Assembly: GCF_001874625.1 (NCBI RefSeq)
Contig: NZ_CP017671.1
Location: 4,278,001-4,342,000 of the forward strand
Length of the DNA: 64,000 nucleotides
Reading direction: 5' to 3'
DNA from: Providencia rettgeri
GTDB taxonomy: Bacteria > Pseudomonadota > Gammaproteobacteria > Enterobacterales > Enterobacteriaceae
Shown: piece by piece, positions 6,818-24,242 of the stretch
Position numbering within the stretch: position 1 is the stretch's first letter
Layout of the letters: each line of letters opens with the position of its first letter
Notes under the pieces: model-generated
Databases searched by the model: none
The model's input: only the letters and a program-made list of their open reading frames with translations
What the model was told of the DNA's origin: nothing
Made by a program: the position numbers and the translations under genes

Positions 6818-6889
6818 ATAAACAATTTGCTAATCAAAATTTAATATCAATTAACCTCAAATTATTATACTTATAAAAGAGCTATAATT

Positions 6890-8472: not shown

Positions 8473-8488
8473 GTTTCTTATATGAAAC
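8473..8488. promoter_or_regulatory. Upstream operator-like palindrome (IclR-type candidate)
   Basis: Reads GTTTCTTATATGAAAC, perfect GTTTC/GAAAC arms around an AT core. A near copy lies at 8608-8623. IclR-family regulators such as KdgR bind GAAAC/GTTTC palindromes, and an IclR gene lies in the cluster at 11158. Confidence 0.45.
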
Positions 8489-8607: not shown

Positions 8608-8623
8608 GTTTTATATATGAAAC
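8608..8623. promoter_or_regulatory. Downstream operator-like palindrome (IclR-type candidate)
   Basis: Reads GTTTTATATATGAAAC, differing from the upstream copy only in the left arm and core. It sits 32 bases before the first ATG of the catabolic operon, where a repressor or activator would act. Confidence 0.45.
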
Positions 8624-8655: not shown

Positions 8656-8970
8656 ATGAGCTGGATTGCGGTATGTGATGTATCACAGGTTCAAGAAGAA
8701 TTTCCTTTTTCCGCCAAAGTTGATAATGCCGAGATTGGGATCTTCTTGGTTGAGGACCAATATTACGCCTTGGAAGATGTTTGCCCGCATGCTTATGCCC
8801 TTTTAAGTCAAGGTTTTGTAGAAGATGGAAAAGTTGAATGCCCACTACATGAAGCCATTTTCGATATCAAAACCGGAAAATGTTTACGTGAACCAGGAGG
8901 TCGTGACTTAAAAACCTACCAAACGCGAGTTCACGAAAACCAAATCGAAATCAGTTTAATTGAGGAGTAG
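8656..8970 (+). CDS. Rieske-type [2Fe-2S] ferredoxin of an aromatic oxygenase
   Basis: 104 residues. The Rieske ligands are complete: C43-x-H45 and C62-x2-H65 in CPH...CPLH, with 16 residues between the pairs. Small stand-alone Rieske ferredoxins carry electrons from a flavoprotein reductase to the oxygenase alpha subunit. The oxygenase (9340) and a FAD reductase (12976) are both present in this cluster. A good AAAGGAG site precedes the ATG. NirD-like proteins are the main alternative, but the neighbours rule for an oxygenase. Confidence 0.9.
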   Translation: MSWIAVCDVSQVQEEFPFSAKVDNAEIGIFLVEDQYYALEDVCPHAYALLSQGFVEDGKVECPLHEAIFDIKTGKCLREPGGRDLKTYQTRVHENQIEISLIEE

Positions 8971-8972
8971 AA

Positions 8973-9281
8973 ATGGAACCCATTCAGAATTTTAATCCTT
9001 ATTTACCTGCAAATAACCAAATCATTCCTGCCCGTGAAGGGGGTAAAGGCAGTATTCAAGCACCGGGAAGTGCCCCCAATATTGTTTGGCAAACCCGTTC
9101 ACGTATACCTGATGAATATGAGACCACTCTAATTTCGGCACTTGAGACTCTATTTGCAGCAGGCACTGAAACCCTTGATGAATTAGTTAGCGCATTAAAC
9201 CAGCTGCAAATATATGACCGACAAGGTCACCTTTGGTCTTCCAGCAGTTTCCGAGAATTTCTTCTCGTCAATGGTTATTAA
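8973..9281 (+). CDS. Small recombinase-like HTH-domain protein linked to Rieske oxygenases
   Basis: 102 residues, starting two bases after the ferredoxin stop and so co-translated. The N-terminal half is polar (FNPYLPANNQIIPAREGG). The C-terminal half is a predicted helical bundle ending in FREFLLVNGY. It resembles the small family annotated as recombinase-like helix-turn-helix proteins, which I recall beside Rieske oxygenase genes; their function is not known to me. It could help assemble or regulate the oxygenase. I cannot assign a reaction. Confidence 0.62.
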   Translation: MEPIQNFNPYLPANNQIIPAREGGKGSIQAPGSAPNIVWQTRSRIPDEYETTLISALETLFAAGTETLDELVSALNQLQIYDRQGHLWSSSSFREFLLVNGY

Positions 9282-9339
9282 CACCTTGGCATTACTCAGA
9301 AAATATAATTAAAACGCCTTTGATAAACGGAAGCAAATC

Positions 9340-10380
9340 ATGACAACCAATACACAACTTCAAAACTCTCAAGAATATTTAGATGTTGGGTTACGTGGAC
9401 AATGGTATCCCGTATTATCCAGTTGGGAAGTAAGCAGTAACCCTATTGGCATCACTCGGCTCGAAGAACAAATCGTTTTATGGCGAGATGATAAAGGCCA
9501 ACTTCACGCACTTGAAGATAGATGCCCACATCGTGGCGCTCGATTATCAATGGGGTGGAACCTAGGTGAACGCATTGCTTGCTGGTACCACGGCGTCGAA
9601 GTCGGTGGCGACGGTGTCGTTAAAGATGTTCCAGCGGTCAGCCAATGTCCGCTTGAAGGGCAAAAATGCTTAAAGACCTATCCAGTTCAAGAAATTCATG
9701 GGGCTATTTTTCTCTACTTTGCTGTCATTGAAGGTGAAACCCCACCCGCTCTTGAGTTCCCTGAAGAATTAGCGGATGACGAAAATCACAGTCATTTCCT
9801 ATGTACTGCCTCATGGAAATGCAATTACCAGTATGCGTTAGAAAACGTAATGGACCCCATGCACGGAACCTACCTCCATTCATCATCACATTCAATGGCT
9901 GAAGGAGACAAACAGTCAGAGATGATCCTTGAAGCGACAAAAAATGGTTTCATTTTCCGTAAAAATGACCAAATTGGCGTCAACTTCGATTGGGTCGAAT
10001 TTGCGAGCACAGGCGCAAATTGGATGCGCTTATCCATTCCTTATCAAAAACGTTTTGGGCCGGGTGGGCATTTTTGGATTATCGGTATGGTCGTTCCTGA
10101 AGACCGTGATCATACTCGGGTCTTCTTCTGGCGCATCCGCAAAGTCAAAGATTGGCAACGTGATTTATGGCGCTTTATGTACCGCAATCGTCTAGAAGGG
10201 TTGCACTGGGATGTCTTAGAACAAGACCGCATTATTTTAGAAAACCTTGCGCCTAACGCACGTAATAAAGAATTCCTCTACCAACATGATGTGGGGCTAT
10301 CGCGCCTACGCCGGATAATGCAGCGTGAAGCGAAAAAACAATTTGACCTAATAAACAGCAAGGTAGCTGAAAATGCGTGA
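9340..10380 (+). CDS. Rieske non-haem iron oxygenase, alpha subunit (alpha-only type)
   Basis: 346 residues. The N-terminal Rieske domain has C62-x-H64 and C81-x2-H84; the catalytic domain has the mononuclear iron motif N169-x2-D172-x2-H175-x4-H180 (ENVMDPMHGTYLH). No beta subunit is encoded nearby, so it is probably an alpha-only (alpha3) enzyme of the type seen in vanillate, dicamba or carbazole oxygenases. It would insert one or two oxygen atoms from O2 into an aromatic or alicyclic substrate using electrons from the ferredoxin at 8656. Demethylation or monooxygenation is as possible as cis-dihydroxylation. Confidence 0.92.
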   Translation: MTTNTQLQNSQEYLDVGLRGQWYPVLSSWEVSSNPIGITRLEEQIVLWRDDKGQLHALEDRCPHRGARLSMGWNLGERIACWYHGVEVGGDGVVKDVPAVSQCPLEGQKCLKTYPVQEIHGAIFLYFAVIEGETPPALEFPEELADDENHSHFLCTASWKCNYQYALENVMDPMHGTYLHSSSHSMAEGDKQSEMILEATKNGFIFRKNDQIGVNFDWVEFASTGANWMRLSIPYQKRFGPGGHFWIIGMVVPEDRDHTRVFFWRIRKVKDWQRDLWRFMYRNRLEGLHWDVLEQDRIILENLAPNARNKEFLYQHDVGLSRLRRIMQREAKKQFDLINSKVAENA

Positions 10381-11128
10381 CTTATTAGTGGGCAAACGGA
10401 TTGTTATCACTGGGGCAGCCAGAGGGCTTGGCTTTAGTTTTGCCCAAGCCGCAGCACAGCAAGGGGCTCATGTTGTCTTATGTGACATCCTAGAACAACG
10501 ATTACAAGAAAGCGTTGAAACACTCCGTAACCAAGGCCTTGATGCACAAGGTGTTCAGCTTGACCTTGCTTCCCCTGATTCAATAGCGCATGCATTCGAT
10601 ATCATCGGTCAGCAAGGGGTTATTGATGGTTTGATCAATAACGCAGCTCTTGCAACAGGTGTAGGCGGCAAGTTACTGGATGAGTATGACATAGCACTGT
10701 GGGATAACGTCATGACCGTCAATGTCAGAGGAACATGGCTAGTCACAAAAGCGGCTTTGCCATTTTTAAAACTCAGTGGCCATGGAAAAATCGTCAATAT
10801 TGCCTCCGATACTGCACTGTGGGGTGCACCAAAGCTAATGGCTTATGTCGCCAGTAAAGGGGCCATTATCAGTATGACTCGTTCAATGGCTCGCGAACTT
10901 GGTACTCACCGCATTTGTGTGAATGCTATTGCACCGGGGCTTACCAAAGTTGAAGCAACAGAATATGTCCCTGCTGAGCGCCACCAGCTTTATGAAAATG
11001 GCCGAGCACTACAAGGTGAACAAATCCCTGAAGACGTAACAGGCACCGCGTTGTATCTACTTTCACCAATGGCTAATTTTGTCACAGGGCAATTAATTCC
11101 CGTTAATGGTGGCTTTGTTTTTAATTAA
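10373..11128 (+). CDS. SDR-family dehydrogenase (classical, complete active site)
   Basis: 251 residues. Cofactor motif TGAARGLG (residues 13-20) and NNAA, with catalytic S145, Y158 and K162 (YVASK), so this is an active classical NAD(P)-dependent enzyme. It overlaps the oxygenase stop by eight bases, implying translational coupling. The natural role is oxidising the diol or alcohol made by the oxygenase. It contrasts with the second SDR of the cluster (16895), which lacks the catalytic Tyr and Lys. Confidence 0.9.
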   Translation: MRDLLVGKRIVITGAARGLGFSFAQAAAQQGAHVVLCDILEQRLQESVETLRNQGLDAQGVQLDLASPDSIAHAFDIIGQQGVIDGLINNAALATGVGGKLLDEYDIALWDNVMTVNVRGTWLVTKAALPFLKLSGHGKIVNIASDTALWGAPKLMAYVASKGAIISMTRSMARELGTHRICVNAIAPGLTKVEATEYVPAERHQLYENGRALQGEQIPEDVTGTALYLLSPMANFVTGQLIPVNGGFVFN

Positions 11129-11157
11129 CTAACCAAGTTGGCTAAGGGGTTAAGGCA

Positions 11158-11934
11158 ATGAGTTCAACATGCAAATATTTAATACCGGGTTTGGAAAAAG
11201 GGTTACAACTTCTTCTTCTCCTCGCTCAGCAACATCGTGAGTTAACTTTTGCTGAAATCTTGCGCTTAGTCGATATGCCAAAGGCTACGGCATATCGGGC
11301 TATCCAAACATTGGTGCATTTGGATTTTCTCGTCCAACACCCACGCACAGGGGCCTTTTCTCTGGGGCGAAAAGTATTAAGCCTTGGTCTTGGTTATATT
11401 GCATCGTTAGATTTAACTCAATTAGGTCAACCCATTATCGAACAATTGAGAGACCGTAGCCAATGTAACAGCCATTTAGTTATCCGCGATGGCACAGATA
11501 TTATTTATATCGCTCGGGTTAGTGGTGCCGAATCAAAAATTAACCACGTCAGTGTCGGAACACGTTTATCCGCGCATCGTACCTCACTTGGGCGCATGCT
11601 ACTTAGTGGGCTGAACCGTGCGGAATTTGATGCACTCTACCCTCACGATGAGTTACCCGACAATGCAGGCAGTAAACACGAATTCTGGCAAATGATCCAA
11701 GCCGACAAATTGCGTGGCTACGTGATCGGCGAATCATTTTATCGTCGGGGGATTTCATCCATTGTTTACCCCGTCTACAACCAAGCTAATGGCGTAGAGG
11801 CGGTGATTAGCATCATGGTACCGATGAACAGTATTCCGGCACAGGAACGCCAGCGATTACAAAATGAAGTGAGTTATGCCGCGCAAAGATTGACTGAATT
11901 TATTGGTGGTATGAACCAAGCAAAAGCCGTTTAG
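11158..11934 (+). CDS. IclR-family transcriptional regulator
   Basis: 258 residues. The N-terminal winged helix-turn-helix (GLEKGLQLLLLLAQQHRELT to about residue 75) is followed by the IclR effector-binding domain, with SHRTSLGR-type (AHRTSLGRMLLSG) and RRGISSIVYP segments. IclR proteins of this kind bind aromatic acids or their breakdown products and control adjacent catabolic genes. It lies inside the operon, 29 bases after the SDR gene. The GTTTC/GAAAC palindromes at 8473 and 8608 are candidate targets. Confidence 0.92.
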   Translation: MSSTCKYLIPGLEKGLQLLLLLAQQHRELTFAEILRLVDMPKATAYRAIQTLVHLDFLVQHPRTGAFSLGRKVLSLGLGYIASLDLTQLGQPIIEQLRDRSQCNSHLVIRDGTDIIYIARVSGAESKINHVSVGTRLSAHRTSLGRMLLSGLNRAEFDALYPHDELPDNAGSKHEFWQMIQADKLRGYVIGESFYRRGISSIVYPVYNQANGVEAVISIMVPMNSIPAQERQRLQNEVSYAAQRLTEFIGGMNQAKAV

Positions 11935-11967
11935 CGTTAAGCAATTATCTACCCTACATTTTTAGGT

Positions 11968-12020
11968 TTATTGCCATAAGCCTCAGACTCCTTTTGCCCA
12001 AAAGGTGCCTTTGGCAATAA
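11968..12020 (+). promoter_or_regulatory. Nested hairpin in the leader of the extradiol dioxygenase gene
   Basis: An outer 9-bp perfect stem (TTATTGCCA / TGGCAATAA, 11968-11976 with 12012-12020) encloses a 6-bp stem with GCCC loop (CCTTTT / AAAAGG). It sits 24 bases before the ATG at 12045. No U-tract follows, so it is not a standard terminator. It may be an RNA control or stability element, or an operator. Confidence 0.5.
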
Positions 12021-12044
12021 CACCAATCTACAGAGGACTTTGCT

Positions 12045-12971
12045 ATGCCAGTGATTGGAATAGAAAAATTAGAATTTGGTGTCGAAGACATCCCTAACTG
12101 CCAAAAATTTTTACATGATTTTGGCCTACAGGTTACCGCGGTCAACCCGTCATTATTTTCGACGCTCTCTGGGGCAAAAATACAACTTTTTGACCATCAA
12201 GACCCTACACTTCCACCTGCTTTTGAAACAGGCTCAACCCTGCGTCGAATAACTTGGGGGACGGAAAATGCCACTGAACTCAATAAAATCATCGAAAACA
12301 TTCAGGGTTGTGATGGTTTCAAACTTACTGGAGATGGCGCCGAATGCCGTGACCCGAATGGTATGACAGTGGCTTTTACCGTCACTCAGCAACAGAGCGT
12401 CGAAATAGAAATCTCACCAATCAACCAATGGGGGGATATTCGCCGTATTGATCAACCTAGCCCTGTTTACGAAAAAGCAACGCCAATTAATGTGGGCCAT
12501 GTGGTATTTTTTGTCGACGACTTACCGTCCACAGAAGCCTTTTATTGCCAAAAGCTGGGTTTTCAAGTCTCTGACCGTTATATCGACCGTGCTGTCTTTT
12601 TACGTGCTCAAGTTAATGGTTGTCATCACAATTTATTCCTACTCAAATTACCACACCGTGGCAGCGGCCTTAATCATGTTGCCTTTACCGTACGTGATAT
12701 CCATGAAGTCATTGGCGGTGGCTTAGCAATGAACCGGCAGCAATGGAGCACCTTTATTGGTCCTGGTCGCCACCCGATTTCATCGGCTTATTTTTGGTAC
12801 GTTAACAGCCCGACCGGTGGCGCCTTTGAATATTACACTAATGACGATTTCTTGACGGATAAATGGCAGCCTCGCGAACTGGAACATTCACTGGTTTCAT
12901 TCACCGAGTGGGCGGTGGAAGGCGGTCTAGATTATGAAACCCGTCGTCAAGTCAAACCGGTAAAGGAGTAA
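12045..12971 (+). CDS. VOC-family extradiol (type I) ring-cleavage dioxygenase
   Basis: 308 residues in two VOC domains. The C-terminal domain has the 2-His-1-Glu iron triad of type I extradiol dioxygenases: H152 (NVGHVVF), H211 (LNHVAF) and E262 (GAFEYY). The N-terminal domain lacks these ligands, as in the catechol 2,3-dioxygenase fold. It probably opens a dihydroxylated ring next to the diol using O2. A preceding leader hairpin and an alpha/beta hydrolase downstream (16045) complete a meta-cleavage logic. Without an exact match the ring substrate is open. Confidence 0.85.
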   Translation: MPVIGIEKLEFGVEDIPNCQKFLHDFGLQVTAVNPSLFSTLSGAKIQLFDHQDPTLPPAFETGSTLRRITWGTENATELNKIIENIQGCDGFKLTGDGAECRDPNGMTVAFTVTQQQSVEIEISPINQWGDIRRIDQPSPVYEKATPINVGHVVFFVDDLPSTEAFYCQKLGFQVSDRYIDRAVFLRAQVNGCHHNLFLLKLPHRGSGLNHVAFTVRDIHEVIGGGLAMNRQQWSTFIGPGRHPISSAYFWYVNSPTGGAFEYYTNDDFLTDKWQPRELEHSLVSFTEWAVEGGLDYETRRQVKPVKE

Positions 12972-12975
12972 CCCT

Positions 12976-14190
12976 ATGAATTCCTTAATCCAAGGTGGTA
13001 TTGTCATTATTGGCGGTGGGCAAGCAGGTGGCTGGGCGGCAAAAACCTTACGAGATGAAGGTTACCAAGGCCAAATCTCTGTTATCAGCGATGAAGATCA
13101 TGACTTTTATGAACGCCCACCGCTATCAAAGGCCGCACTCACACTAGAAAGCTTTGCGCTGTCGCGGTTATTTAGTGAAGAAGCCACCCAAGCCTTACAT
13201 TTGCAATGGTTTCGCCCAGTGCGAGCCACTAAGATTGATACAAAAACAAAATATGTTCACCTCAATGATGGTCGTATTGTAACGTTTGAAAAACTGTTAC
13301 TCGCCACAGGTGGACGCCCCCGTTACCTCTCCAATGATTGGCAAAAACACCCACAAGTTTTCGCATTACGCTCATGGAACGATGCACAACAACTACGCTC
13401 AGCACTCCTTGAGGCAAAGAAAATTGCCATCATTGGCGGCGGGTGGATTGGCTTGGAGGTCGCTGCCTCTGCACGTCAAATGGGAATAGATGTCACAATT
13501 TTTGAGCGTCAAAGCCGCCTATGCGAACGCAGCGTTCCACAAAATGTCTCTGAAGCATTGGCACAGCGCCATACCCGAGCTGGCGTACATATCATTACGG
13601 ATTGTGGTGACATTAAGCTTGGGGAGTCAGTGACTCGCTTACAAATCACTTGCCAGAAGCAACCATGGCAAACATTCGACCTAGCCGTAATGGGGATTGG
13701 GGTTGAATTAAACCTTGAACTCGCCAAACAGGCTGGGCTTGATATCACCCATGGTATTGTTATCAATGACCAAGGGCAAACCTCACACCCTGATATTTAC
13801 GCTGCTGGCGACGTGGCTTGTCATCCAACACTTTCTTTATGTCTGCAATCTTGGGCTTACGCACAAAACCAAGCCATCACGACGGCAAAAGCCATGTTAA
13901 ACCCGCAATCAGAAGGGTTTGATGAGCCAGCTTGGCTATGGTCGGATCAATACCAAGATAATATTCAAATATTGGGCATACCAACTTCGCAAGCGCAACA
14001 ACACATCCAGCGCTATACACCAAACTCAGAGGTCCATTTTTCCCTGAATGACACTAATGAATTGGTGCAAATGATTGCTTTCAATGATGCACGCGCTATC
14101 AAGCTAGGTAAGCGTTGGATGCAAAGTCACCGCAAACTGGATCCTTCTGAACTTGCTGATCCAACATTTTCACTGATGTCACTGAAATAG
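12976..14190 (+). CDS. FAD-dependent ferredoxin reductase of the Rieske system
   Basis: 404 residues. An N-terminal FAD Rossmann motif (GGGQAGGWAA) followed by FYERPPLSKA, a second NAD-binding motif (IIGGGWIGLEVAA) and a late FAD-binding segment (DIYAAGDVA) match BphA4/CamA-type ferredoxin reductases. It would move electrons from NAD(P)H to the Rieske ferredoxin at 8656. It starts four bases after the dioxygenase stop. Reductase and ferredoxin are separated by four genes, which is unusual within one operon but not rare. Confidence 0.9.
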   Translation: MNSLIQGGIVIIGGGQAGGWAAKTLRDEGYQGQISVISDEDHDFYERPPLSKAALTLESFALSRLFSEEATQALHLQWFRPVRATKIDTKTKYVHLNDGRIVTFEKLLLATGGRPRYLSNDWQKHPQVFALRSWNDAQQLRSALLEAKKIAIIGGGWIGLEVAASARQMGIDVTIFERQSRLCERSVPQNVSEALAQRHTRAGVHIITDCGDIKLGESVTRLQITCQKQPWQTFDLAVMGIGVELNLELAKQAGLDITHGIVINDQGQTSHPDIYAAGDVACHPTLSLCLQSWAYAQNQAITTAKAMLNPQSEGFDEPAWLWSDQYQDNIQILGIPTSQAQQHIQRYTPNSEVHFSLNDTNELVQMIAFNDARAIKLGKRWMQSHRKLDPSELADPTFSLMSLK

Positions 14191-14211
14191 TGTACAGCAA
14201 GGAGAAATAAC

Positions 14212-15492
14212 ATGGCTAATCAAAGCATTACCTTACAAGCCAAGGAACATGACCAACAAGCCCAAGACATCCCTGAAAAAATTAATTGGTTAATCCCAAT
14301 TGGCTTATTTTCCTGTGTATTGCTCGCTTTCTTCGACAAAATCAGTATTGCAGCTCTATTTTCAGATGAAAAGTTTCAGCAGGCACTTGGCATTGACTTT
14401 GATCCAACACGTTTAGGTCTGCTGATGAGCGCATTTTTATTTGCTTATGGCGTTTCCTCAATGTTACTTAGTGGAATTGGCGACCGATTCCACCCAACCA
14501 AAATGCTACTGTTTATGATTAGCAGTTGGTGCTTCTTAATGATTTTCATGGGGTTTACCCATCATTACGGCACGATGGTTTTTCTGAGGATCTTGCTCGG
14601 TATTGCTGAAGGCCCCCTACTAGCCATTGCTTACGCCATTGTACGCCGCACATTTCCACCTAAGATGCAGGCTCGCGCCACTATGATGTGGTTACTTGGA
14701 ACTCCAATTGGAGCGGCTCTAGGCTTCCCTATCGCCCTATATCTTCTGAATAATTTTGGCTGGCAAAGTACCTTCTTTGTGATGGCGGCCTTTACCGTAC
14801 CCGTTTGGTGGCTAGTCGTGATTGGTATCCGTCACCCTAACTTAGTAAATCGTCAGGCTCAAACCAAAAACTCAGCGGGTGAAAAACGATCAGTCGAACA
14901 GCTCGCGACCATACAAGCCCATAAAAAACGCTTATTCAAAAACAGCCATTTTTGGATTATCTGCCTGTTTAACATCGCTTTTCTTGTTTATCTTTGGGGG
15001 ATGAATGGCTGGTTACCAAGCTATTTAATTAAAGGGAAATCAATCCACTTAGAGCATGCAGGGGTCTTATCCTCTCTCCCCTTTATCGCCATGTTGTTTG
15101 GCGAAGGAATAGGCGCATGGTTGTCTGACCGCTATGACCGTAGAGCTTTAGTGTGTTTTGTATCTCTCTTAGGTGCGGTATTGGGCTTAGCTGGAGTGCT
15201 ATTCCTCACTGATACCTACAGCATCATCCTCATGATGGCATTTAGCATGTTTATGTGGGGAGCAGGAGCTCCCAATATCTTCGCTCTACTCGCTAAAGTC
15301 ACACAAAAACAAGTCAGTGCATTGGCCGGTGGCATATTCAATGGCCTAGGAAACCTCGCTGGCGCGGCTGCACCTCTGCTGATGGGGGTGCTGATCACCG
15401 CCACTCACACTATGGATAGCGGGCTGTTATTTATCGTAATTATTGGTTTAGTCGGCAGCCTACTACTTCTGCCTCTACTGAAAAAATACTAA
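14212..15492 (+). CDS. MFS transporter, probable uptake carrier for the cluster's substrate
   Basis: 426 residues, 12 predicted membrane helices, with GDRFHPTK after helix 2 and SDRYDRR after helix 8. It belongs with the anion:cation symporter group that imports aromatic or sugar acids. It is colinear with the catabolic genes and preceded by an AAGGAG ribosome site, so import of the growth substrate is the natural role. The transported molecule, likely a carboxylate, is not deducible. Confidence 0.83.
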   Translation: MANQSITLQAKEHDQQAQDIPEKINWLIPIGLFSCVLLAFFDKISIAALFSDEKFQQALGIDFDPTRLGLLMSAFLFAYGVSSMLLSGIGDRFHPTKMLLFMISSWCFLMIFMGFTHHYGTMVFLRILLGIAEGPLLAIAYAIVRRTFPPKMQARATMMWLLGTPIGAALGFPIALYLLNNFGWQSTFFVMAAFTVPVWWLVVIGIRHPNLVNRQAQTKNSAGEKRSVEQLATIQAHKKRLFKNSHFWIICLFNIAFLVYLWGMNGWLPSYLIKGKSIHLEHAGVLSSLPFIAMLFGEGIGAWLSDRYDRRALVCFVSLLGAVLGLAGVLFLTDTYSIILMMAFSMFMWGAGAPNIFALLAKVTQKQVSALAGGIFNGLGNLAGAAAPLLMGVLITATHTMDSGLLFIVIIGLVGSLLLLPLLKKY

Positions 15493-15516
15493 TCACTCTG
15501 TGTAGGAGATAACGCT

Positions 15517-16029
15517 ATGTCACAACCTCAAATCAAACCCCAAGATATCCCAATGGCACAATGGATAGAATCACGAATTGCTCGCCTTGAAGGCCGTAAA
15601 TATGACTGGAACGCCTTGAAATTCCAAGCTGATTACGACCCTAAATATCGTCGTGCCCAAATGCGCTACATCGGTACTGGTGCAACAGGTGTTGCTAATG
15701 ACGTGAATACCGTCCCCGCAGAGAACTTCACTTTCTCCACCATGGTATTACCCGCCAAATGTGAAGGCCCCTTACATTTACATCCTGATGTTGAAGAAGT
15801 GTTTTTCATGCTGAAGGGCACTATTACGCTATTTGTTCGTGATGGTGACGAAGAGTATGAAACGGTTCTCAAAGAACGTGACCTAATTTCTGTTCCAGCG
15901 GGGATTTACCGTGGTCTATTTAATCATGGAGAGGAAGAGGCATTAATGTGCGTGATGATTGGCACACAAAAGCCTGCAATCCCGACTTACCCAGAAGACC
16001 ACCCGTTATCTAAAGTGAAACGTAACTAA
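15517..16029 (+). CDS. Cupin-domain protein
   Basis: 170 residues with one cupin barrel. Metal-ligand-like residues appear in GPLHLHPDVEEVFFMLKG (two His and a Glu, motif 1). A second half follows with DLISVPAGIYRGLFNHGEEE. Small cupins in aromatic clusters serve as dioxygenases, isomerases or decarboxylase-like enzymes; which applies here is not visible. No signal peptide. It lies 24 bases after the carrier gene and 12 before the hydrolase. Confidence 0.75.
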   Translation: MSQPQIKPQDIPMAQWIESRIARLEGRKYDWNALKFQADYDPKYRRAQMRYIGTGATGVANDVNTVPAENFTFSTMVLPAKCEGPLHLHPDVEEVFFMLKGTITLFVRDGDEEYETVLKERDLISVPAGIYRGLFNHGEEEALMCVMIGTQKPAIPTYPEDHPLSKVKRN

Positions 16030-16044
16030 CCGGAGTTATCAGTG

Positions 16045-16884
16045 ATGAATTTGCCAATCGAAAAACTTCCTGCACAACAACTGGCTGATTTTGGCCAATA
16101 CCGCCTTAATTGGCGCTGTTCAGGTCATGGGCATGCCGTCGTTTTATTGCACGGGATCAGCTCTGGCTCGGCCTCATGGGTAAGCCAACTGGCTTCTTCA
16201 TCACTGACCGACCACTATCGACTGTATAGCTGGGATGCTCCCGGCTATTCGGGCAGCTCAATGCTCAACACAGCGAAACCAACTGCTGTTGACTATGCTA
16301 CAGCATTAAAAGCTTTTTTAGATAGCCTAAAAATACAACAGGTCGTTTTAGTCGGGCATTCACTCGGAGCCTTGATGGCTAGCGCTTTTGCCGCACAATA
16401 TTCTCAGCAAGTAAAAGGGTTATTTTTAGCTAATCCAGCTCAAGGCTATGCCTCTAAAAGCCCTGAACAGCAAGCTTCCGTGTATCAACAACGGCAGATG
16501 ATTGTAACTAATTCAGGGTTACAAGCCTATGCTGAAAACCGAGCCGCCGCCCTACTATCACCCAATGCAACCCCAGAAAAAATCGATTGGGTGAAACAAA
16601 ATATGGAAAAACTTAATCCCCAAGGCTTTCTTGCGGCAGCATGGATGTTAGCCCATGACGATATTAGTTTGTATTTAAAGGGTTATAACGGGCCAATCGA
16701 AATACTGGCAGGCGCTGATGACACCATTACGCCACCACAACAAGTACAGCAGCTCGCGATACAACAAGAGTGCCCTTTTTGGTTGATTAAACAAGCGGGA
16801 CATGCCAGTTACCTTGATACCCCCACACAGTTTAATCACCATTTGAAACAATTTTTAGAGACGGTATACAACCCAGTCGAATAA
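16045..16884 (+). CDS. Alpha/beta hydrolase (candidate C-C bond hydrolase of ring-cleavage product)
   Basis: 279 residues from the ATG at 16045; a GTG three bases earlier is an alternative start. The nucleophile elbow GHSLG holds S106. The oxyanion-hole HGIS segment lies at 36-39, the acid in LAGADDTI and the catalytic His in KQAGHASYL. With an extradiol dioxygenase in the same operon, hydrolysis of the meta-cleavage product (as MhpC or BphD do) is the best guess. An esterase or lactonase role is the alternative. Confidence 0.82.
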   Translation: MNLPIEKLPAQQLADFGQYRLNWRCSGHGHAVVLLHGISSGSASWVSQLASSSLTDHYRLYSWDAPGYSGSSMLNTAKPTAVDYATALKAFLDSLKIQQVVLVGHSLGALMASAFAAQYSQQVKGLFLANPAQGYASKSPEQQASVYQQRQMIVTNSGLQAYAENRAAALLSPNATPEKIDWVKQNMEKLNPQGFLAAAWMLAHDDISLYLKGYNGPIEILAGADDTITPPQQVQQLAIQQECPFWLIKQAGHASYLDTPTQFNHHLKQFLETVYNPVE

Positions 16885-16894
16885 AGGAATCCTT

Positions 16895-17689
16895 ATGAAT
16901 TTACAGTTAAATAACCGTATTGCTGTCGTGACTGGAGGGAGCTCTGGTATTGGTTTTGCAACAGTCAAACTGTTACTCGACGAAGGTTGTAAAGTTGCTT
17001 TTTGTGGTCGAGATACTGAAAAACTACAACACGCTCTCAATACATTACGGTCTCTCTACCCTCAAGGGGAATTTATCGCACAGCGCTGTGATGTCCTCGA
17101 TAAGGCACAAACAGAAAACTTCGCTCAACATGTTTATCAACACTATGGGCAAGTTGATCTTCTGATTAACAATGCGGGTCAAGGCTATGTTGCAAGCTAT
17201 GCTGACACTCCTGAAGCCGCTTGGTTACATGAAGCACAATTAAAATTATTTGGTGTCATTAACCCAGTAAATGCTTTTTTACCTTTCTTAGAACAATCCA
17301 ATATTGCGTCAATTACCTGTGTTAATTCGTTATTAGCGTTACAACCCGAGCCCCATATGGTCGCCACATCTGCCGCACGCGCTGCTCTGTTGAACATGAC
17401 ATTAAATTTATCGAAAACATTGCTACCCAAAGGGATACGCGTTAACTCAATTTTGCTCGGTATGGTCGAATCAGACCAATGGCGGCGTCGTTTCGAAAAC
17501 CGGAGTGATAAAAGCTTGGATTGGCAGCAATGGATTGGCGATATCGCTAACAAGCGAGGGATCCCGATGCAACGTTTGGGGAAACCAGAAGAACCAGCCC
17601 GTGCCTTAGTTTTTTTAGCTTCACCGATGGCTTCGTTTACCTCCGGTGCCGCTTTAGATATTTCGGGTGGCTTTAGCCATCACATTTAA
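16895..17689 (+). CDS. SDR-family protein with altered catalytic residues
   Basis: 264 residues. The cofactor site TGGSSGIG (13-20) and NNAG are normal and S145 is kept. The usual YxxxK reads T158-SAA-R162 (ATSAARAAL), so both the catalytic Tyr and Lys are replaced. The fold and C-terminal GGFS are intact and no frameshift is seen, so the change looks selected rather than decayed. It may use another proton relay, catalyse a non-redox step, or bind cofactor only. It lies ten bases after the hydrolase gene. Confidence 0.83.
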   Translation: MNLQLNNRIAVVTGGSSGIGFATVKLLLDEGCKVAFCGRDTEKLQHALNTLRSLYPQGEFIAQRCDVLDKAQTENFAQHVYQHYGQVDLLINNAGQGYVASYADTPEAAWLHEAQLKLFGVINPVNAFLPFLEQSNIASITCVNSLLALQPEPHMVATSAARAALLNMTLNLSKTLLPKGIRVNSILLGMVESDQWRRRFENRSDKSLDWQQWIGDIANKRGIPMQRLGKPEEPARALVFLASPMASFTSGAALDISGGFSHHI

Positions 17690-17699
17690 AGGGTTAATT

Positions 17700-18491
17700 A
17701 TGAAAACATTAATGTTGATTGGTTATGGTGCAATGGCACAAGAAGTGATTGCTCGTTTACCTAGTGGAATAACCCTTCGCTGGGTTGTGGCTCGCCCTCA
17801 TCACCATAACGCAATACAAGAACGCTTCAAGGGCGCGGTGCTCCCTATTGATAGACTTGATGACTTTAACGAACACCCCGATTTAGTGTTGGAGTGTGCT
17901 GGTCATCAAGCGGTACAGCAGTATGCGCCAACCATTTTACAAAGGGGCTGGACTCTTGCCATTATTTCCACTGGTGTACTGGCTGATGCCACTTTCGAAA
18001 ACACACTAACCACATTAGCAAAGCGTCATCAAAGCCAACTAATTCCTCTCTCAGGCGCGGTTGCTGGGCTTGATGGTTTACGAGCAGCCAAAGAGGCGAA
18101 CATTACCCACGTCATTTATCAGTCACGTAAAAGCCCTGCCAGTTGGCGCAATGGTGCTGCTGAGCGTTATATCGACTTATCGAGTGTCTCTGAAGCTACC
18201 GCCTTTTTTAGTGGTAGTGCGCGAGAAGCTGCCTTGAACTTCCCAGCCAATGCTAATGTTGCCGCTACCGTTGCACTGTATGGCATAGGTATGGATGCAA
18301 CTCAGGTACAACTCATCGTTGATCCGGACACCACCAAAAATTCGCATCAAATTGATGTAAGAGGGGATTTCGGGCATTTTTCTATTGAGTTAAATGGCAA
18401 CCCCCTACCTTCAAACCCAAAGACATCTATGCTTGCAGCCCTAAGTGCCGTTGAAATTTGCCGCCGTATTGCTGAGCAACAGGTAAGCTAA
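17700..18491 (+). CDS. Aspartate dehydrogenase-like (NadX/DUF108) oxidoreductase
   Basis: 263 residues from the ATG at 17700, with GGGTTAATT just upstream. The N-terminal Rossmann motif is GYGAMA (6-11). The C-terminal half shows ANVAATVALYGIG and NPKTSMLAALS, characteristic of L-aspartate dehydrogenase-type proteins. Known members convert oxaloacetate and ammonia to aspartate with NAD(P)H. In this catabolic setting the substrate is probably a different oxo acid or imine made in the pathway. The gene begins 10 bases after the SDR stop at 17689. Confidence 0.8.
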   Translation: MKTLMLIGYGAMAQEVIARLPSGITLRWVVARPHHHNAIQERFKGAVLPIDRLDDFNEHPDLVLECAGHQAVQQYAPTILQRGWTLAIISTGVLADATFENTLTTLAKRHQSQLIPLSGAVAGLDGLRAAKEANITHVIYQSRKSPASWRNGAAERYIDLSSVSEATAFFSGSAREAALNFPANANVAATVALYGIGMDATQVQLIVDPDTTKNSHQIDVRGDFGHFSIELNGNPLPSNPKTSMLAALSAVEICRRIAEQQVS

Positions 18492-18504
18492 TAGGAGCCT
18501 AATC

Positions 18505-19974
18505 ATGAATAAAATGGATATTTTTGTGGGGGGAAAATGGCAACAAGGTCGTGGACCTGAAATGCAATCACGTTTTCCGGGTGATAACCATGTCGTTGCT
18601 ACTCTCAACAGTGCCAGCCTTGAAGATGTCCAAGACGCCGTAAACGCGGCGGACAAAGCTTGGCGAGAACCTACCTGGCGCAATATGCCTGCACATCAAC
18701 GCGCGGCTATCTTATATAACGTCAGCGCATTGATTGATGAGCAGCGTGAAACCTTAACGCAATTACAAACTTTGGACAACGGGAAGCCGTGGGCTGAAGC
18801 GCGTGGTTTAGTCATGAGCGCAGCCGCCACCGCACGTTATTTTGCCGCCGTTTGTGAGGTTTCTGGAGGGGAGCTTCCACCTCGACGCCAACCAGACTTG
18901 ATGACAATAAGCACTTACCAACCCATCGGAGTGATCGCCGCCATCACACCGTGGAACTCCCCCATTGCCAGCGATATGCAAAAAATTGCTCCGGCGCTTG
19001 CCGCAGGTAATGCGGTTATTTTAAAACCTGCGGAAGCCACGCCACTAATTTCATTAAAATTGGCAGAACTCTTTGAACAAGCAGGGTTACCAAGTGGCTT
19101 ACTCAGCGTATTACCGGGAAAAGGCTCTATTGTGGGTGATGCATTGGTTCGCCACCCGTTAGTGCGAAAAATCTCTTTCACCGGGGGGACAAACACGGGT
19201 CGCCAACTGGCTCATATTGCGGCTGATAAACTGATCACGACCTCCCTCGAACTGGGTGGGAAATCCCCAACAATTGTGCTAGCAGATGCTGACCTAGACA
19301 TTGCCGCTCATGGAGTCTGTTACGGTATTTTTAGTTCAATGGGACAAGCTTGTATCGCAGGTTCTCGCTTATTTGTTGCCCGCGATATCTACCAACCTTT
19401 TATGGAAAAATTAACCCAATTAACCCAGAACTTGATTATTGGCGACCCAAGGCAAGAACGCATCCATGTGGGGCCTTTAATTTCAGCGGCTCACCGTGAT
19501 AGCGTCAAAACCTACGTTGAACAAGCCGTCCAACAAGGCGGTCATATTCGCCTTGGCGGTACCGTTCCCACAGACCCCGCACTACAAAATGGCAATTATT
19601 TCTTACCGACCATTATTGAAGGCCTCAGTAATCAATCTAGTGTTTGCCAAGAAGAAATCTTCGGCCCCGTCTTAGTGGTGATCCCCTTTGATGATGAAGC
19701 CACATTGATCCAAGAAGCTAATGATTCCGTTTATGGGCTGGCTGCGGGGATTTGGACTCGCGACTATACTCGCGCCTTTAAACTGGCGGATGCCCTTGAT
19801 GTAGGAACAGTTTGGGTCAATACCTACAAAGTTTTTTCCATCTCAACCCCATTTGGGGGCTTTAAAGAAAGTGGCATTGGCAGAGAAAAAGGCTTAGAAA
19901 GCCTAAAAGCCTATATGCAACAAAAAAGCCTTTTTTTGGCACTTAACCCACAACCAAACCGTTGGTGTGAATAG
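18505..19974 (+). CDS. Aldehyde dehydrogenase, NAD(P)-dependent
   Basis: 489 residues, a full-length ALDH. The cofactor region has ITPWNSP, KPAEATP and FTGGTNTGR. The catalytic Glu is in LELGGKSP and the catalytic Cys in GQACIAGSR. The C-terminal FGGFKESGIGREKG is canonical. It would oxidise an aldehyde formed by ring-fission chemistry or by the ThDP decarboxylase encoded just downstream (20016). Gap to the preceding gene is 13 bases. The specific aldehyde cannot be read. Confidence 0.93.
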   Translation: MNKMDIFVGGKWQQGRGPEMQSRFPGDNHVVATLNSASLEDVQDAVNAADKAWREPTWRNMPAHQRAAILYNVSALIDEQRETLTQLQTLDNGKPWAEARGLVMSAAATARYFAAVCEVSGGELPPRRQPDLMTISTYQPIGVIAAITPWNSPIASDMQKIAPALAAGNAVILKPAEATPLISLKLAELFEQAGLPSGLLSVLPGKGSIVGDALVRHPLVRKISFTGGTNTGRQLAHIAADKLITTSLELGGKSPTIVLADADLDIAAHGVCYGIFSSMGQACIAGSRLFVARDIYQPFMEKLTQLTQNLIIGDPRQERIHVGPLISAAHRDSVKTYVEQAVQQGGHIRLGGTVPTDPALQNGNYFLPTIIEGLSNQSSVCQEEIFGPVLVVIPFDDEATLIQEANDSVYGLAAGIWTRDYTRAFKLADALDVGTVWVNTYKVFSISTPFGGFKESGIGREKGLESLKAYMQQKSLFLALNPQPNRWCE

Positions 19975-20015
19975 CTTATCCGTTAAAGGATTACGGCTGC
20001 ATTTAGGAGAATACA

Positions 20016-21659
20016 ATGTCTGAAATGATTACAGTTGGCGAAGCTATCGCCAGAACACTTGAACAATACCAAGTCACAACGGTTTACGGGGTTATTTCTA
20101 TTCACAATTTACCTATTGCCGATGCGATTGGCCGTCGTGCTAAAATTGACTTTACCCCAAGCCGTGGAGAAGCCGGAGCAGTAACTATGGCCGATGCACA
20201 CAGCCGTTTTAGTGGCTTAGGCGTCGCGCTAACGAGTACGGGGGCTGGAGCAGGAAATGCAGTGGGGTCAATGATTGAAGCTATGAATGCTTGTTCACCA
20301 ATGCTCCACATTACTGGGCAGGTTGAAAAAGCCTATTTAGATATGGATGCAGGGTTTATTCATGAAACAGCGGATCAACTGGGTTTCTTGCGTTCAAGCT
20401 CTAAACAAGCATTCCGTGTACATACACCAGAACAAGCGGTGGCGACACTGCATAAAGCAATCCAAGTTGCGCAAACCGCCCCATGTGGCCCTGTTTCGAT
20501 TGAAATCCCCATTGATATTCAAAGTGCTCAAGTGCCATTGTCCTTATTAAGTGCCCCGCTTTCTGTGCCAACTTTGCCCGCAATTTGCTCATCACAGATA
20601 GAAGCCATTTGGGACAAACTTCAGCATGCACAGCGCCCATTATTGTGGGTCGGTGGCGGTGCATTGCAGGCGGTAGAAGCCGTTAAACGCTTGGCTAATC
20701 AAGGTGTCGCCGTAATCAGCAGCACCCATGGAAGAGGTATTTTATCGGATGATCACCCGTTCAGCCTGCGTGCTTTTCATAATGCGGACTCAATTGATAC
20801 ATTAATGCGTGAATGTGATTTGACGCTGGTCGCGGGCTCCCGGTTACGCAGTAATGAGACTAAAACTTGGTCATTACCATTACCTCACCCCATCATCCAA
20901 ATTGATATTAACCCGTTAGCGGCAAACCGCAATTACTTAGCCGACCTCAATATCACAGGGGATTGTAAAGGCCTGCTTAATGCGCTTGCCGATAAAATTG
21001 AGCAAGCTAACCGCCCAGTTTCTTCTGCATGGAAACAGCAAATACAACAAGCCGTTCAGTTGGCAGAACAGCAATTAAGGGCACAATGCGGGCCATACAG
21101 TGAACTCAGTGATGCTGTCGAGCAAGCCTTACCCGAACATGGTATTTTTGTGCGGGACATTACTGTATCAGGCAGCTTATGGGGCAGCCGTTTATTAAAA
21201 GCTACACAGCCGATGCACAATATTCATTCCTTAGCGGGTGCCATTGGCTTAGGCCTTGCGATGGCCATTGGTAGTGCGAAAGCCAACCCAAATACCGCAG
21301 TGATTGGCTTAGTTGGGGATGGCGGCTTGATGTTAGGGGTCGGTGAGCTTGCGACTATGGCTCAAGAACAACTACCGATTGTGTTGATAATCATGAATGA
21401 CCAAGGTTATGGTGTCATGCGTGGTATTCAGGAAAAATATTTCTCAGGTCGCCAATATTATAATGAATTATTAACACCATCATTTAGCCAACTAGCACAA
21501 TCGATGGGGATCACCGCCCTAACGGTAGATAAACCCAGCGAATTCCAACCTATACTTCATCAAGCTGTTGCTTTAAAGCGGCCAGTTGTCGTTGAAGTAT
21601 TAATGAATCATATCGGTAAAATGAATTTCTCGGGCCCCCCGCAGAAAAAACTATTTTAA
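20016..21659 (+). CDS. Thiamine-diphosphate enzyme (acetolactate synthase-like; probable 2-oxo acid decarboxylase or lyase)
   Basis: 547 residues with three ThDP-fold domains. The activating Glu sits in PSRGEAGAVTMADAHSR, and the Mg/ThDP motif begins GDGGLMLGVGEL and ends in NDQGYG. The family includes acetolactate synthases, benzoylformate decarboxylase and AruI-like decarboxylases. Being last in a ring-degradation operon beside an ALDH, it most plausibly decarboxylates a 2-oxo acid to an aldehyde for the ALDH, or cleaves an acyloin or 1,3-dione. A terminator follows. Confidence 0.87.
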   Translation: MSEMITVGEAIARTLEQYQVTTVYGVISIHNLPIADAIGRRAKIDFTPSRGEAGAVTMADAHSRFSGLGVALTSTGAGAGNAVGSMIEAMNACSPMLHITGQVEKAYLDMDAGFIHETADQLGFLRSSSKQAFRVHTPEQAVATLHKAIQVAQTAPCGPVSIEIPIDIQSAQVPLSLLSAPLSVPTLPAICSSQIEAIWDKLQHAQRPLLWVGGGALQAVEAVKRLANQGVAVISSTHGRGILSDDHPFSLRAFHNADSIDTLMRECDLTLVAGSRLRSNETKTWSLPLPHPIIQIDINPLAANRNYLADLNITGDCKGLLNALADKIEQANRPVSSAWKQQIQQAVQLAEQQLRAQCGPYSELSDAVEQALPEHGIFVRDITVSGSLWGSRLLKATQPMHNIHSLAGAIGLGLAMAIGSAKANPNTAVIGLVGDGGLMLGVGELATMAQEQLPIVLIIMNDQGYGVMRGIQEKYFSGRQYYNELLTPSFSQLAQSMGITALTVDKPSEFQPILHQAVALKRPVVVEVLMNHIGKMNFSGPPQKKLF

Positions 21660-22057: not shown

Positions 22058-23062
22058 ATGAGTAAAGAGCAAGTAAACAGCAGCTTGTTCAATGATGATC
22101 CTGTATTACACGCAACATGGCTATATTATCAGGAAGGCAAAAGCCAGACTGAAGTCGCTGCCCTAATGGGCCTTTCGCGTGTCACCGTCGTCAAATATCT
22201 ACAAACTGCTAGAGAAAATGGTTTAGTTCAGATCAATTTAGATACCAATGTCTTTGGCTCAATTGATGCCGCTTTACGTATTCGTGATAAATTTGGTTTG
22301 TATCGAGTTATCATTGTGCCTGATGGCGAGCATGCCGGAAAACGAACAGACTCAAAATTGATGCGTTCCAGACTTTCCCGTGCTGGAGGGATGTATTTAA
22401 ACCAAGTTATCGAGAACAATGACGTTCTTGGGGTTGCTTGGGGAAGAACCATCCATGAGATGAGCAAAACGATGACACCAAATTCATGTAAAAATGTCAC
22501 CGTGATCCAGATGCTAGGTTCCATGCCTTCTCAGCCAGACCTGACAATCCTCGAATCGTCGTCACAAATAGCGTTTAAACTGTCAGGGAAAGTGGCTTCT
22601 CTTCATGTCCCAGCGGTTGTCTCCAGTGCAAGGTTAGCCATGGAATTACAAGCTGAACCCATCATTCGTGCTAATTTTGAAGTATTAACTCACTGCACAA
22701 AAGCCTTCTTTGTTGTAGGAAGCGCACTGGATGAAAACCCGTTAATTCAAGTCGGTGTCCTAAGCAAAAAAGAAATGCAAAACTACCGAGATGCAGGGGC
22801 CGTCGGCGTCATTTGTGGCCGGTTCTACGACAAAAATGGAGTACCTGTTATTGCTGAAGTTGACCAACGGATACTAGGAATAAGCCTTGCCCAATTAAGG
22901 CAAATTGAGCGTAAAATATTTCTGGCTGGGGGCGAGAATGGCTATGCTGCAACCTTAGGGGCATTACTCGGCGGTTATGTCACAGACCTTATTGTTGATG
23001 AGGGAACAGCTGAGTTTTTATTATCCTGCGAGCTGCCCAACGTTGATTCATCCCCATCCTAA
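22058..23062 (+). CDS. SorC/DeoR-type sugar-binding transcriptional regulator
   Basis: 334 residues. An N-terminal HTH (YYQEGKSQTEVAALMGLSRVTVVKYLQTA) precedes a SorC-type sugar-phosphate-binding domain with a GVAWGRT segment and a late GGENG motif. SorC regulators sense phosphorylated sugars. It converges on the methylthioribose/deoxyribose operon, with a shared terminator between them, so control of that operon by its phosphorylated intermediate is plausible. The palindrome at 27341 would be the target. It could instead control the catabolic operon upstream. Confidence 0.87.
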   Translation: MSKEQVNSSLFNDDPVLHATWLYYQEGKSQTEVAALMGLSRVTVVKYLQTARENGLVQINLDTNVFGSIDAALRIRDKFGLYRVIIVPDGEHAGKRTDSKLMRSRLSRAGGMYLNQVIENNDVLGVAWGRTIHEMSKTMTPNSCKNVTVIQMLGSMPSQPDLTILESSSQIAFKLSGKVASLHVPAVVSSARLAMELQAEPIIRANFEVLTHCTKAFFVVGSALDENPLIQVGVLSKKEMQNYRDAGAVGVICGRFYDKNGVPVIAEVDQRILGISLAQLRQIERKIFLAGGENGYAATLGALLGGYVTDLIVDEGTAEFLLSCELPNVDSSPS

Positions 23063-23105
23063 AAAGCAAGGTGCCGCACTTTTTACGGCTCACCTAATAA
23101 AAAAG

Positions 23106-23144
23106 AATATTTACCCCACTATAGACATAATGGGGCAAAATATT
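23106..23144. terminator. Bidirectional terminator between the SorC gene and the sugar transporter gene
   Basis: Long imperfect stem: AATATTTACCCCA (23106-23118) pairs with TGGGGCAAAATATT (23131-23144). AT-rich outer arms allow it to serve both strands. It touches the stop codon of the minus-strand transporter gene. Confidence 0.65.
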
Positions 23145-24148: not shown

Positions 24149-24196
24149 GAATAACTCCTTGGGATAATTATAATTAATCGTTATAGGTAGAGGTTG

Positions 24197-24220
24197 GCAG
24201 CCATTTTATAAAATGGCTGC
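24197..24220. repeat. Perfect 24-bp palindrome between aldolase and transporter genes
   Basis: GCAGCCATTTT-AT-AAAATGGCTGC, an exact inverted repeat in the 94-base gap. No U-tract follows on the minus strand, so it is more likely an mRNA-stabilising or attenuating hairpin than a full terminator; it could lower transporter expression relative to the enzymes. Confidence 0.7.
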
Positions 24221-24242
24221 TATCGATGAGAACAAGTTGAAT

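Follow-up and report, generated by a model that had tools for sequence, protein, structure and literature searches.

Within a 64,000-nucleotide stretch of the Providencia rettgeri genome (the window), 14 intact open reading frames, all on the plus strand at positions 8656-21659, form a tightly packed unit with intergenic gaps of -23 to 110 bases. We propose, with somewhat better than even confidence, that this unit encodes a single catabolic pathway for kynurenate (4-hydroxyquinoline-2-carboxylate). Kynurenate is a neuro- and immuno-active product of tryptophan breakdown that is excreted by animals. A bacterial route for its degradation was described in the 1960s and runs through kynurenate 7,8-hydroxylase, a dihydrodiol dehydrogenase and 7,8-dihydroxykynurenate 8,8a-dioxygenase. 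To our knowledge, no genes have been assigned to these three enzymes. If our assignment is true, the unit holds their genes, and the loss of kynurenate by gut, urinary and wound bacteria would become predictable from genomes. The 14-gene unit, common to many bacteria including Klebsiella and Acinetobacter, would then probably permit growth on kynurenate.

An earlier note on this DNA had described the same colinear set of 14 genes, all of which we find intact, and had given no substrate; kynurenate is the proposal of the present analysis. Its claim that no described pathway has this set agrees with our literature search, which returned, among the matches listed, no gene assignment for kynurenate degradation or for this gene set.

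Kynurenate would probably be taken up by the MFS carrier (14212-15492, Pfam MFS_1). The alpha-only Rieske oxygenase (9340-10380), our proposed kynurenate 7,8-dioxygenase, would then dihydroxylate C7-C8 together with the Rieske ferredoxin (8656-8970, Pfam Rieske) and the ferredoxin reductase (12976-14190, Pfam Pyr_redox_2 and Reductase_C). Both the Rieske and the VanA_C domains of the oxygenase lie above the Pfam cut-off, and its metal-ligand residues (C62, H64, C81, H84, D172, H175 and H180) are invariant in 33 sequences. Pfam detects no gene for a beta subunit in the unit, and the oxygenase has the features of the alpha-only VanA_C/CarAa type. Ranked by E-value, carbazole 1,9a-dioxygenase comes first in the sequence search and in the fold search alike, with 2-oxoquinoline 8-monooxygenase also among the matches, while TM-score ranks a guaiacol O-demethylase above carbazole dioxygenase as a fit to the oxygenase model. 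CarAa is likewise alpha-only with a separate ferredoxin, but in the fold alignment the two proteins are about 20% identical. The pathways that follow carbazole 1,9a-dioxygenase and 2-oxoquinoline 8-monooxygenase are unlike the lower pathway of the window.

The proposed dihydrodiol dehydrogenase, SDR1 (10373-11128; S145, Y158 and K162 invariant), would yield 7,8-dihydroxykynurenate. Ring cleavage between C8 and C8a is assigned to the VOC extradiol dioxygenase (12045-12971), the proposed 7,8-dihydroxykynurenate 8,8a-dioxygenase, and would give 5-(3-carboxy-3-oxopropenyl)-4,6-dihydroxypicolinate. In type I extradiol dioxygenases, a His-His-Glu set provides the iron ligands and a His/His/Tyr set the second-sphere acid-base residues. 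The VOC protein has both sets in common with homoprotocatechuate 2,3-dioxygenase and other members of this type: H152, H211 and E262, already noted as intact, are invariant across 23 orthologues (those passing, from 27 chosen loci), and H195, H243 and Y252 are present and invariant as well. Against the NCBIfam dioxygenase models that it matches, its scores remain far under cut-off. Genes for a dioxygenase, a dihydrodiol dehydrogenase and an extradiol dioxygenase are thus co-located, as a kynurenate pathway requires. The class and order of these first three activities are the same as in the classical pathway, and in both routes a pyridine-ring intermediate would bear a 2-oxo acid.

For the next step, we infer an order and division of labour in which the alpha/beta hydrolase (16042-16884), with the cupin (15517-16029) and the non-canonical SDR2 (16895-17689), would open the lactam and cut C4-C4a. 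The products would be iminosuccinate, carrying C2, C3, C4, the carboxylate and the nitrogen, and a C6 2-oxo-enedioate. The hydrolase has an intact Ser-Asp-His triad (S107, D227 and H254, invariant), which fits its earlier description as a putative C-C hydrolase; ring opening or C-C hydrolysis is its proposed step. The roles of the cupin and SDR2 are guesses. The cupin (Pfam Cupin_2) has H87, H89 and E93 among its invariant residues and H137 outside them.

Iminosuccinate would be converted to L-aspartate by the aspartate dehydrogenase (17700-18491). The open reading frame begins with a GTG at 17667, and the ATG at 17700 is the more likely start. The protein lies above the cut-offs of Pfam Asp_DH_C and NCBIfam PRK13303.1-3, and it retains the NVAAT, H227 and NPKTS motifs of the solved aspartate dehydrogenases to which it was aligned (2dc1, 1h2h and 1j5p). 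By these sequence features (Asp_DH_C, the catalytic His and NPKTS), it is classed as an L-aspartate dehydrogenase (NadX). The 2-oxo acid would be decarboxylated by the ThDP enzyme (20016-21659; Pfam TPP_enzyme N, M and C; E52 invariant), a proposed 2-oxo acid decarboxylase, and the resulting aldehyde oxidised by the aldehyde dehydrogenase (18505-19974; C283 and E249 invariant) to glutaconate or a relative.

The kynurenate skeleton would account for this combination. An aspartate dehydrogenase would be present because the ring nitrogen, C2-C4 and the carboxylate of kynurenate make up the skeleton of iminosuccinate, and a ThDP enzyme and an aldehyde dehydrogenase because the other half of the cleaved molecule would be a 2-oxo acid. 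It is likely, as the earlier note suggested, that the substrate contains nitrogen and that a 2-oxo acid is involved. Several points count against our proposal: the TM-score ranking of the oxygenase, the guessed roles of the cupin and SDR2 and, as given below, the loci without the palindrome, the loci without lower-pathway genes, the NCBIfam match of the NicC-like enzyme and the sparse tryptophan link. A further point is that the amino product predicted for the unit is aspartate, whereas the available text on Pseudomonas extracts gives glutamate and alanine, with acetate, as products of the classical pathway. In addition, the Acinetobacter expression data, as far as the accessible parts of the reports go, do not point to kynurenate.

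The unit is probably under the control of its own IclR-family regulator (11158-11934; Pfam HTH_IclR and IclR_C), whose top NCBIfam match, PcaR/PcaU, is under cut-off. Two copies of the palindrome GTTTCATATATGAAAC, each with one mismatch, lie upstream at 8473-8488 and, directly before the first gene, at 8608-8623; they are the sole sites in the genome at one mismatch and are candidate operators to which the regulator may bind. The position of the second copy is kept among the aligned enterobacterial copies. The element is found in 32 of 79 named loci, some of them from other proteobacterial classes, and the other 47 have no site at two mismatches. Together, the regulator gene and the conserved palindrome agree with the earlier view that ring oxidation and ring cleavage belong to one unit which has a regulator gene of its own. 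An upstream MFS gene (6890-8236) and an SMP-30 gene were rejected as members, as neither gave a match in the nearest available relative, G287, over a range of 8 kb on the upstream and 17 kb on the downstream side.

The gene set is conserved as a set. We collected 80 named loci by their match to the oxygenase alone, 65 of which have about 21 kb of sequence. At least seven of the nine catabolic enzymes are found in 58 of these 65 long loci, and all nine in 35; such co-occurrence, in loci selected on the oxygenase only, is beyond chance. A gene for a small HTH_62 protein (8973-9281, Pfam HTH_62), not named in the earlier note, also belongs to the set and is present in 58 of the 65; a fold search with it gave no match at E <= 0.001. 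The earlier note had thought such a pathway unusual for a gut/urinary-type enterobacterium. This does not hold: the oxygenase is present in 51 of 392 genomes of the window's family (the window's own counted, a few copies broken), and the set is found, as far as the flanks extend, in Klebsiella, Serratia, Enterobacter, Raoultella and Leclercia. Acinetobacter and Burkholderia are other named carriers, and Paraburkholderia xenovorans LB400 has the cluster too (locus L087). For E. coli, a search of 20,395 records gave no match at the sensitivity settings applied. Some loci are reduced within the sequence examined: a Billgrantia locus lacks the VOC gene and the entire lower pathway, and the marine loci L112, L115 and L122 lack the aspartate dehydrogenase and VOC genes.

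Variant clusters carry additional enzymes. In one genus, probably Cupriavidus, a Mo hydroxylase shares 20 kb with the lower-pathway genes and VOC in all 13 usable genomes, 10 of which have the oxygenase itself inside that interval; in Caballeronia and Billgrantia, a Mo hydroxylase lies near the oxygenase. Variant clusters also contain RidA, VanB-type reductases and an FAD enzyme whose nearest PDB match is 6-hydroxynicotinate 3-monooxygenase (NicC-like) and whose top NCBIfam match is 3-hydroxybenzoate 6-monooxygenase. The Mo hydroxylase, RidA and the NicC-like enzyme belong to N-heterocycle chemistry and count in favour of the kynurenate proposal. Additions to the variants could also mean that the main substrate is not kynurenate itself but a closely related quinoline-2-carboxylate (xanthurenate, quinaldate or one with other substituents) feeding the same lower pathway, a reading that we consider unlikely. 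The Mo hydroxylase would suit chemistry of the quinaldate-to-kynurenate type, for which quinaldine 4-oxidase, in the available part of its report, is a precedent (PMC3534580). Variants also add a phenol-hydroxylase-like FAD enzyme, and the palindrome is found with a second operon in G011, which has a 51% oxygenase together with a VOC, a RidA and a reductase of its own. The window, however, has the basic set only (dioxygenase, SDR1 and VOC), which would suit a substrate without an 8-hydroxyl and with the 4-hydroxyl already in place.

We give an even chance to a wider form of the kynurenate proposal. It holds that these are the genes of a pathway so far known from biochemistry only. Unexpectedly, the route would end in L-aspartate, made by a catabolic aspartate dehydrogenase. 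The carriers are common human-associated bacteria (Klebsiella, Serratia, Acinetobacter and Enterobacter), in many of which the genes stand behind one palindrome that recurs in several proteobacterial classes. Quinaldate and xanthurenate would enter this trunk by way of added modules, namely the Mo hydroxylase, the FAD monooxygenase and the second oxygenase operon.

As improbable as a kynurenate relative as main substrate is a different N-containing aromatic from plants or animals (an indole, a benzoxazinoid or an alkaloid fragment) that likewise releases an imino acid when cleaved. The aspartate dehydrogenase, RidA, NicC-like enzyme and Mo hydroxylase suit N-heterocycles in general, and a glycoside hydrolase family 3 gene adjoins the Novosphingobium copy. 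Against this, C2-C4 of kynurenate yields iminosuccinate exactly, and the few tryptophan-side genes near variants are tryptophan 2,3-dioxygenase (TDO) and an aromatic aminotransferase.

This tryptophan link, where present, speaks for kynurenate, but it is sparse and confined to variant clusters. In one family, 26 genomes have the oxygenase, and TDO adjoins the cluster in one of them (G1235). Another FAD enzyme occurs in 3 of 250 genomes, all three oxygenase-positive; in G1274 it immediately follows a second-type TDO, in G817 it is separated from such a TDO by 1.2 kb, and in G1141 its neighbour is VOC. The second-type TDO itself is found in 5 of the 250 genomes, 4 of them oxygenase-positive. An aromatic aminotransferase gene stands behind the Mo hydroxylase in G1049, with a broken copy in the near relative Caballeronia NK8. 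The p-values ignore the relatedness of genomes, the cut-offs were fixed after the matches were known, and in the variants that supply the TDO links the oxygenase has about 50% identity with that of the window. TDO was not found in the window's genome and is missing from 25 of 49 cluster genomes; across these 49, no TDO locus overlaps an oxygenase locus. Neither the TDO/aminotransferase loci nor the Comamonadaceae-type clusters examined yielded the palindrome.

A sulfur- or carbon-limitation compound without ring nitrogen, the aspartate dehydrogenase-like enzyme doing another job, is very improbable, since the active-site motifs of that enzyme are fully retained and no further sulfur gene was recognised in the annotated cluster records examined, against a TauE/SafE exporter annotated upstream of one Caballeronia copy, a sulfatase-like ORF in L255 and, in the accessible parts of two reports, A. 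baumannii ABUW_2942, 2943 and 2946 (cluster-like by name and order) up with sulfur-acquisition genes under B12 (PMC12892962) and A1S_0956 to 0958 up in mucin (PMC5757984).

Several known pathways were rejected. Phenol/3-phenylpropionate meta-cleavage (Mhp/Dmp) needs a 2-hydroxypentadienoate hydratase, an aldolase and an acylating acetaldehyde dehydrogenase, all missing from the 14 genes. The hallmarks of the indole-3-acetate (iac) cluster, the IacA-type flavoprotein and the two-subunit IacCD oxygenase, are both missing too, and the oxygenase type differs. Pyridoxal degradation fails on SDR1, which scores 179 bits against a cut-off of 325. Vanillate demethylation by VanAB does not fit a window without VanB, with a separate Rieske ferredoxin and a Pyr_redox reductase, and with ring-cleavage genes following.

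Finally, catalytic residues are kept in the enzymes checked except in SDR2, where TSAAR replaces YxxxK and T158, S159 and R162 are invariant with 26 orthologues; a role as a classical SDR dehydrogenase was rejected on the missing motif. The same replacement is seen in a close homologue, Q9HYA2 (308 bits; PDB 3lf1 and 3lf2), which we take to be a P. aeruginosa protein, presumably with PA3504-PA3511 as its AspDH/ThDP/ALDH neighbourhood.

The 14 genes that an earlier note had described as one colinear run do form such a run, spanning 8656-21659 on the + strand with intergenic gaps of -23 to 110 bases. In order, their Pfam matches are a Rieske ferredoxin, HTH_62 (recombinase-like HTH), a Rieske + VanA_C oxygenase, an SDR, IclR, VOC, Pyr_redox/Reductase_C, MFS, Cupin_2, an alpha/beta hydrolase, a second SDR, Asp_DH_C (AspDH), ALDH and a three-domain ThDP enzyme. 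Within the best 25 NCBIfam matches per protein, cut-offs are passed only by the second SDR (SDR2, PRK07062), the AspDH (PRK13303.1-3) and the ThDP enzyme (PRK07064), and none of these matches gives a pathway name.

This is a real, widespread catabolic unit. Matches to the oxygenase (9340-10380) occur in 51 of the 392 family genomes (E ≤ 1e-30; own genome and a few copies with stops or splits counted) and in 15 of 398 genomes sampled across the phylum (E ≤ 1e-60; own genome counted). Among the best 80 of 582 relatives, the carriers are Serratia, Klebsiella, Raoultella, Enterobacter, Leclercia, Acinetobacter, Ignatzschineria, Psychrobacter, Burkholderia, Paraburkholderia (including LB400), Caballeronia, Cupriavidus, Sphingobium, Variovorax and marine Alphaproteobacteria. 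Of nine catabolic enzymes, seven or more are present at 58 of the 65 sufficiently long loci in this set and the full nine at 35; at many loci the flank ends inside the last gene, which limits these counts. The HTH_62 protein (8973-9281), for which a PDB fold search gave no significant match, also lies near the oxygenase in 58 of the 65. Annotated copies of the cluster exist in Klebsiella aerogenes, A. baumannii, Caballeronia and Novosphingobium; the E. coli genomes searched had no match. Three marine alphaproteobacterial variants (L112, L115 and L122) lack AspDH and VOC within the stretch examined. In L115 a TENA/haem-oxygenase-like gene follows the ThDP gene, with homologues in the other two.

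Active sites were compared in orthologues from 27 chosen loci, with 9 to 26 passing per gene. Invariant residues are C62, H64, C81, H84, D172, H175 and H180 in the oxygenase; S145, Y158 and K162 in the first SDR (10373-11128); S107, D227 and H254 in the hydrolase; N195, N197, H227, N250, K252 and S254 in the AspDH (17700-18491); C283 and E249 in the ALDH; and E52 in the ThDP enzyme. The H152-H211-E262 triad of the VOC dioxygenase (12045-12971) is intact, as previously claimed, and invariant, likewise H195, H243 and Y252. In the cupin, H87, H89 and E93 are invariant; H137, which could be a fourth ligand, is not. SDR2 is probably not an ordinary dehydrogenase, because invariant T158, S159 and R162 (TSAAR) occupy the place of YxxxK, as in the solved homologue 3lf1. 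SDR2 (16895-17689) and PDB 3lf1 mark an SDR subfamily in which TSAAR invariantly replaces YxxxK.

At the NVAAT, NxH and NPKTS motifs the AspDH lines up with L-aspartate dehydrogenases of solved structure. The oxygenase structure model (mean pLDDT 85.8) has carbazole 1,9a-dioxygenase as its top fold match by E-value, whereas guaiacol O-demethylase has the higher TM-score (0.76); 2-oxoquinoline 8-monooxygenase ranks 43.

The best-supported substrate of the unit is kynurenate, which we favour with moderate confidence. Kynurenate would be dihydroxylated at C7-C8, dehydrogenated and cleaved between C8 and C8a, giving a 4,6-dihydroxypicolinate that bears a 2-oxo-acid side chain. Once the lactam and the C4-C4a bond were hydrolysed, iminosuccinate (C2-carboxylate, C2, C3, C4 and N), the presumptive AspDH substrate, would be released. 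The benzo carbons would leave as a C6 2-oxo-enedioate, which a ThDP decarboxylase could plausibly accept, with the ALDH next. Such a scheme would cover all enzyme classes, apart from the precise roles played by the cupin, SDR2 and the HTH_62 protein.

Tryptophan 2,3-dioxygenase (TDO) occurs in 24 of 49 cluster genomes, and in none of these 49 does a TDO locus overlap the oxygenase locus. We inspected the flanks in all 26 oxygenase-positive genomes of a 250-genome family sample; in one, G1235, a convergent TDO adjoins the cluster. In this sample any TDO is found in 22/26 oxygenase-positive genomes versus 156/250 overall (p = 0.009), a second-type TDO in 5/250 genomes, 4/5 oxygenase-positive (chance 4e-4; cut-off of E 1e-100 chosen after the list was seen), and a particular FAD monooxygenase in 3/250, 3/3 oxygenase-positive (chance 0.001 if independent); all three figures come from variant clusters and ignore kinship. 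In G1274 the monooxygenase gene directly follows a second-type TDO, in G817 a divergent TDO-aminotransferase pair lies 1.2 kb away from it, and in G1141 it sits beside VOC inside the cluster; in a Variovorax genome reached separately (G816, locus L128) it is again behind the second-type TDO. TDO is absent from the genome to which the window belongs, so kynurenate would need an outside source.

Other genes near variant clusters point to N-heteroaromatic chemistry. Orthologues of a three-subunit molybdenum hydroxylase, 61% identical in the large subunit, occur in both Caballeronia NK8 and Billgrantia. In the former the hydroxylase lies directly 3′ of the second oxygenase operon; in the latter it is ~2 kb off on the other strand, and VOC and lower-pathway genes are absent within the stretch examined. 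This hydroxylase occurs in 14/249 genomes of the Burkholderia-type family, 13 of them from one genus, probably Cupriavidus. All 13 carry VOC and lower-pathway genes on the same 20-kb stretch as the hydroxylase, and 10 carry the oxygenase there. Four of five far flanks examined among them hold an FAD gene closest in PDB to 6-hydroxynicotinate 3-monooxygenase; its top NCBIfam match, under cut-off, is 3-hydroxybenzoate 6-monooxygenase. An aromatic aminotransferase gene (PRK09257) lies 3′ of the molybdenum hydroxylase in G1049, with a broken copy in its near relative Caballeronia NK8. RidA, of a family of imine/enamine deaminases, is encoded beside the oxygenase at L163 and L167 and at several loci of the Comamonadaceae type.

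According to a 2024 review (PMC11354673), pseudomonads convert kynurenate to glutamate, alanine and organic acids. The literature searched, to which subscription journals were mostly external, yielded no gene assignment for kynurenate degradation, and a published one may exist. The enzyme families are known; their combination and the likely aspartate end are undescribed in that literature. In reports on A. baumannii, cluster-like genes, matched by name and order only, are raised in mucin (PMC5757984), in some cases detected solely in biofilm (PMC3758355), raised together with sulfur genes under B12 (PMC12892962) and represented by a captured promoter (PMC4328036); these reports weigh neither for nor against kynurenate.

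An upstream alignment of eight enterobacterial copies, the window included, revealed a conserved palindrome just 5′ of the ferredoxin gene (8656-8970). Both window copies (8473-8488 and 8608-8623) have one mismatch to GTTTCATATATGAAAC. At two mismatches, 2 sites compare with 0.06 expected, and two sites arose in 1/100 shuffles; no other site in the 4.89 Mb genome comes within one mismatch of the degenerate form. The degenerate palindrome is present in 32/35 cluster genomes tested and in 0 in a backward control. Among named loci from the best 80 of 582 relatives, 32/79 have a site at ≤ two mismatches, namely all 14 enterobacterial loci and some from Acinetobacter, Psychrobacter, Zobellella, Cupriavidus and Alphaproteobacteria; 47/79, including most Burkholderia and Paraburkholderia, have none. 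One genome, G011, has two extra sites, one preceding a second operon (MFS, VOC, a 51% oxygenase, RidA and a VanB-type reductase) and one preceding a porin-like gene (by our reading; no NCBIfam match). This pattern is consistent with a single regulator controlling a small set of genes of its own, and the IclR protein is the predicted binder. The second operon (L167, G011 4244000-4261890), with its palindrome upstream, reads as lying between mnmE-like and yieF-like genes, a place that in E. coli is occupied by tnaCAB.

Elsewhere in the window, a frameshift or sequencing error divides dmsA (DMSO reductase subunit A) between two overlapping - strand frames at 2938-4638 (model positions 255-814) and 4622-5401 (model positions 2-253). 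The SMP-30/gluconolactonase gene (5940-6820) ends prematurely at 6596 and continues in another frame; as the second frame break within 5 kb, it hints at assembly errors. Finally, 22058-27309 encodes a SorC/DeoR-type regulator, a RhaT/ureide-type permease, a FucA-like aldolase, MtnA and MtnK, and looks like a methylthioribose/5-deoxyribose salvage cluster.
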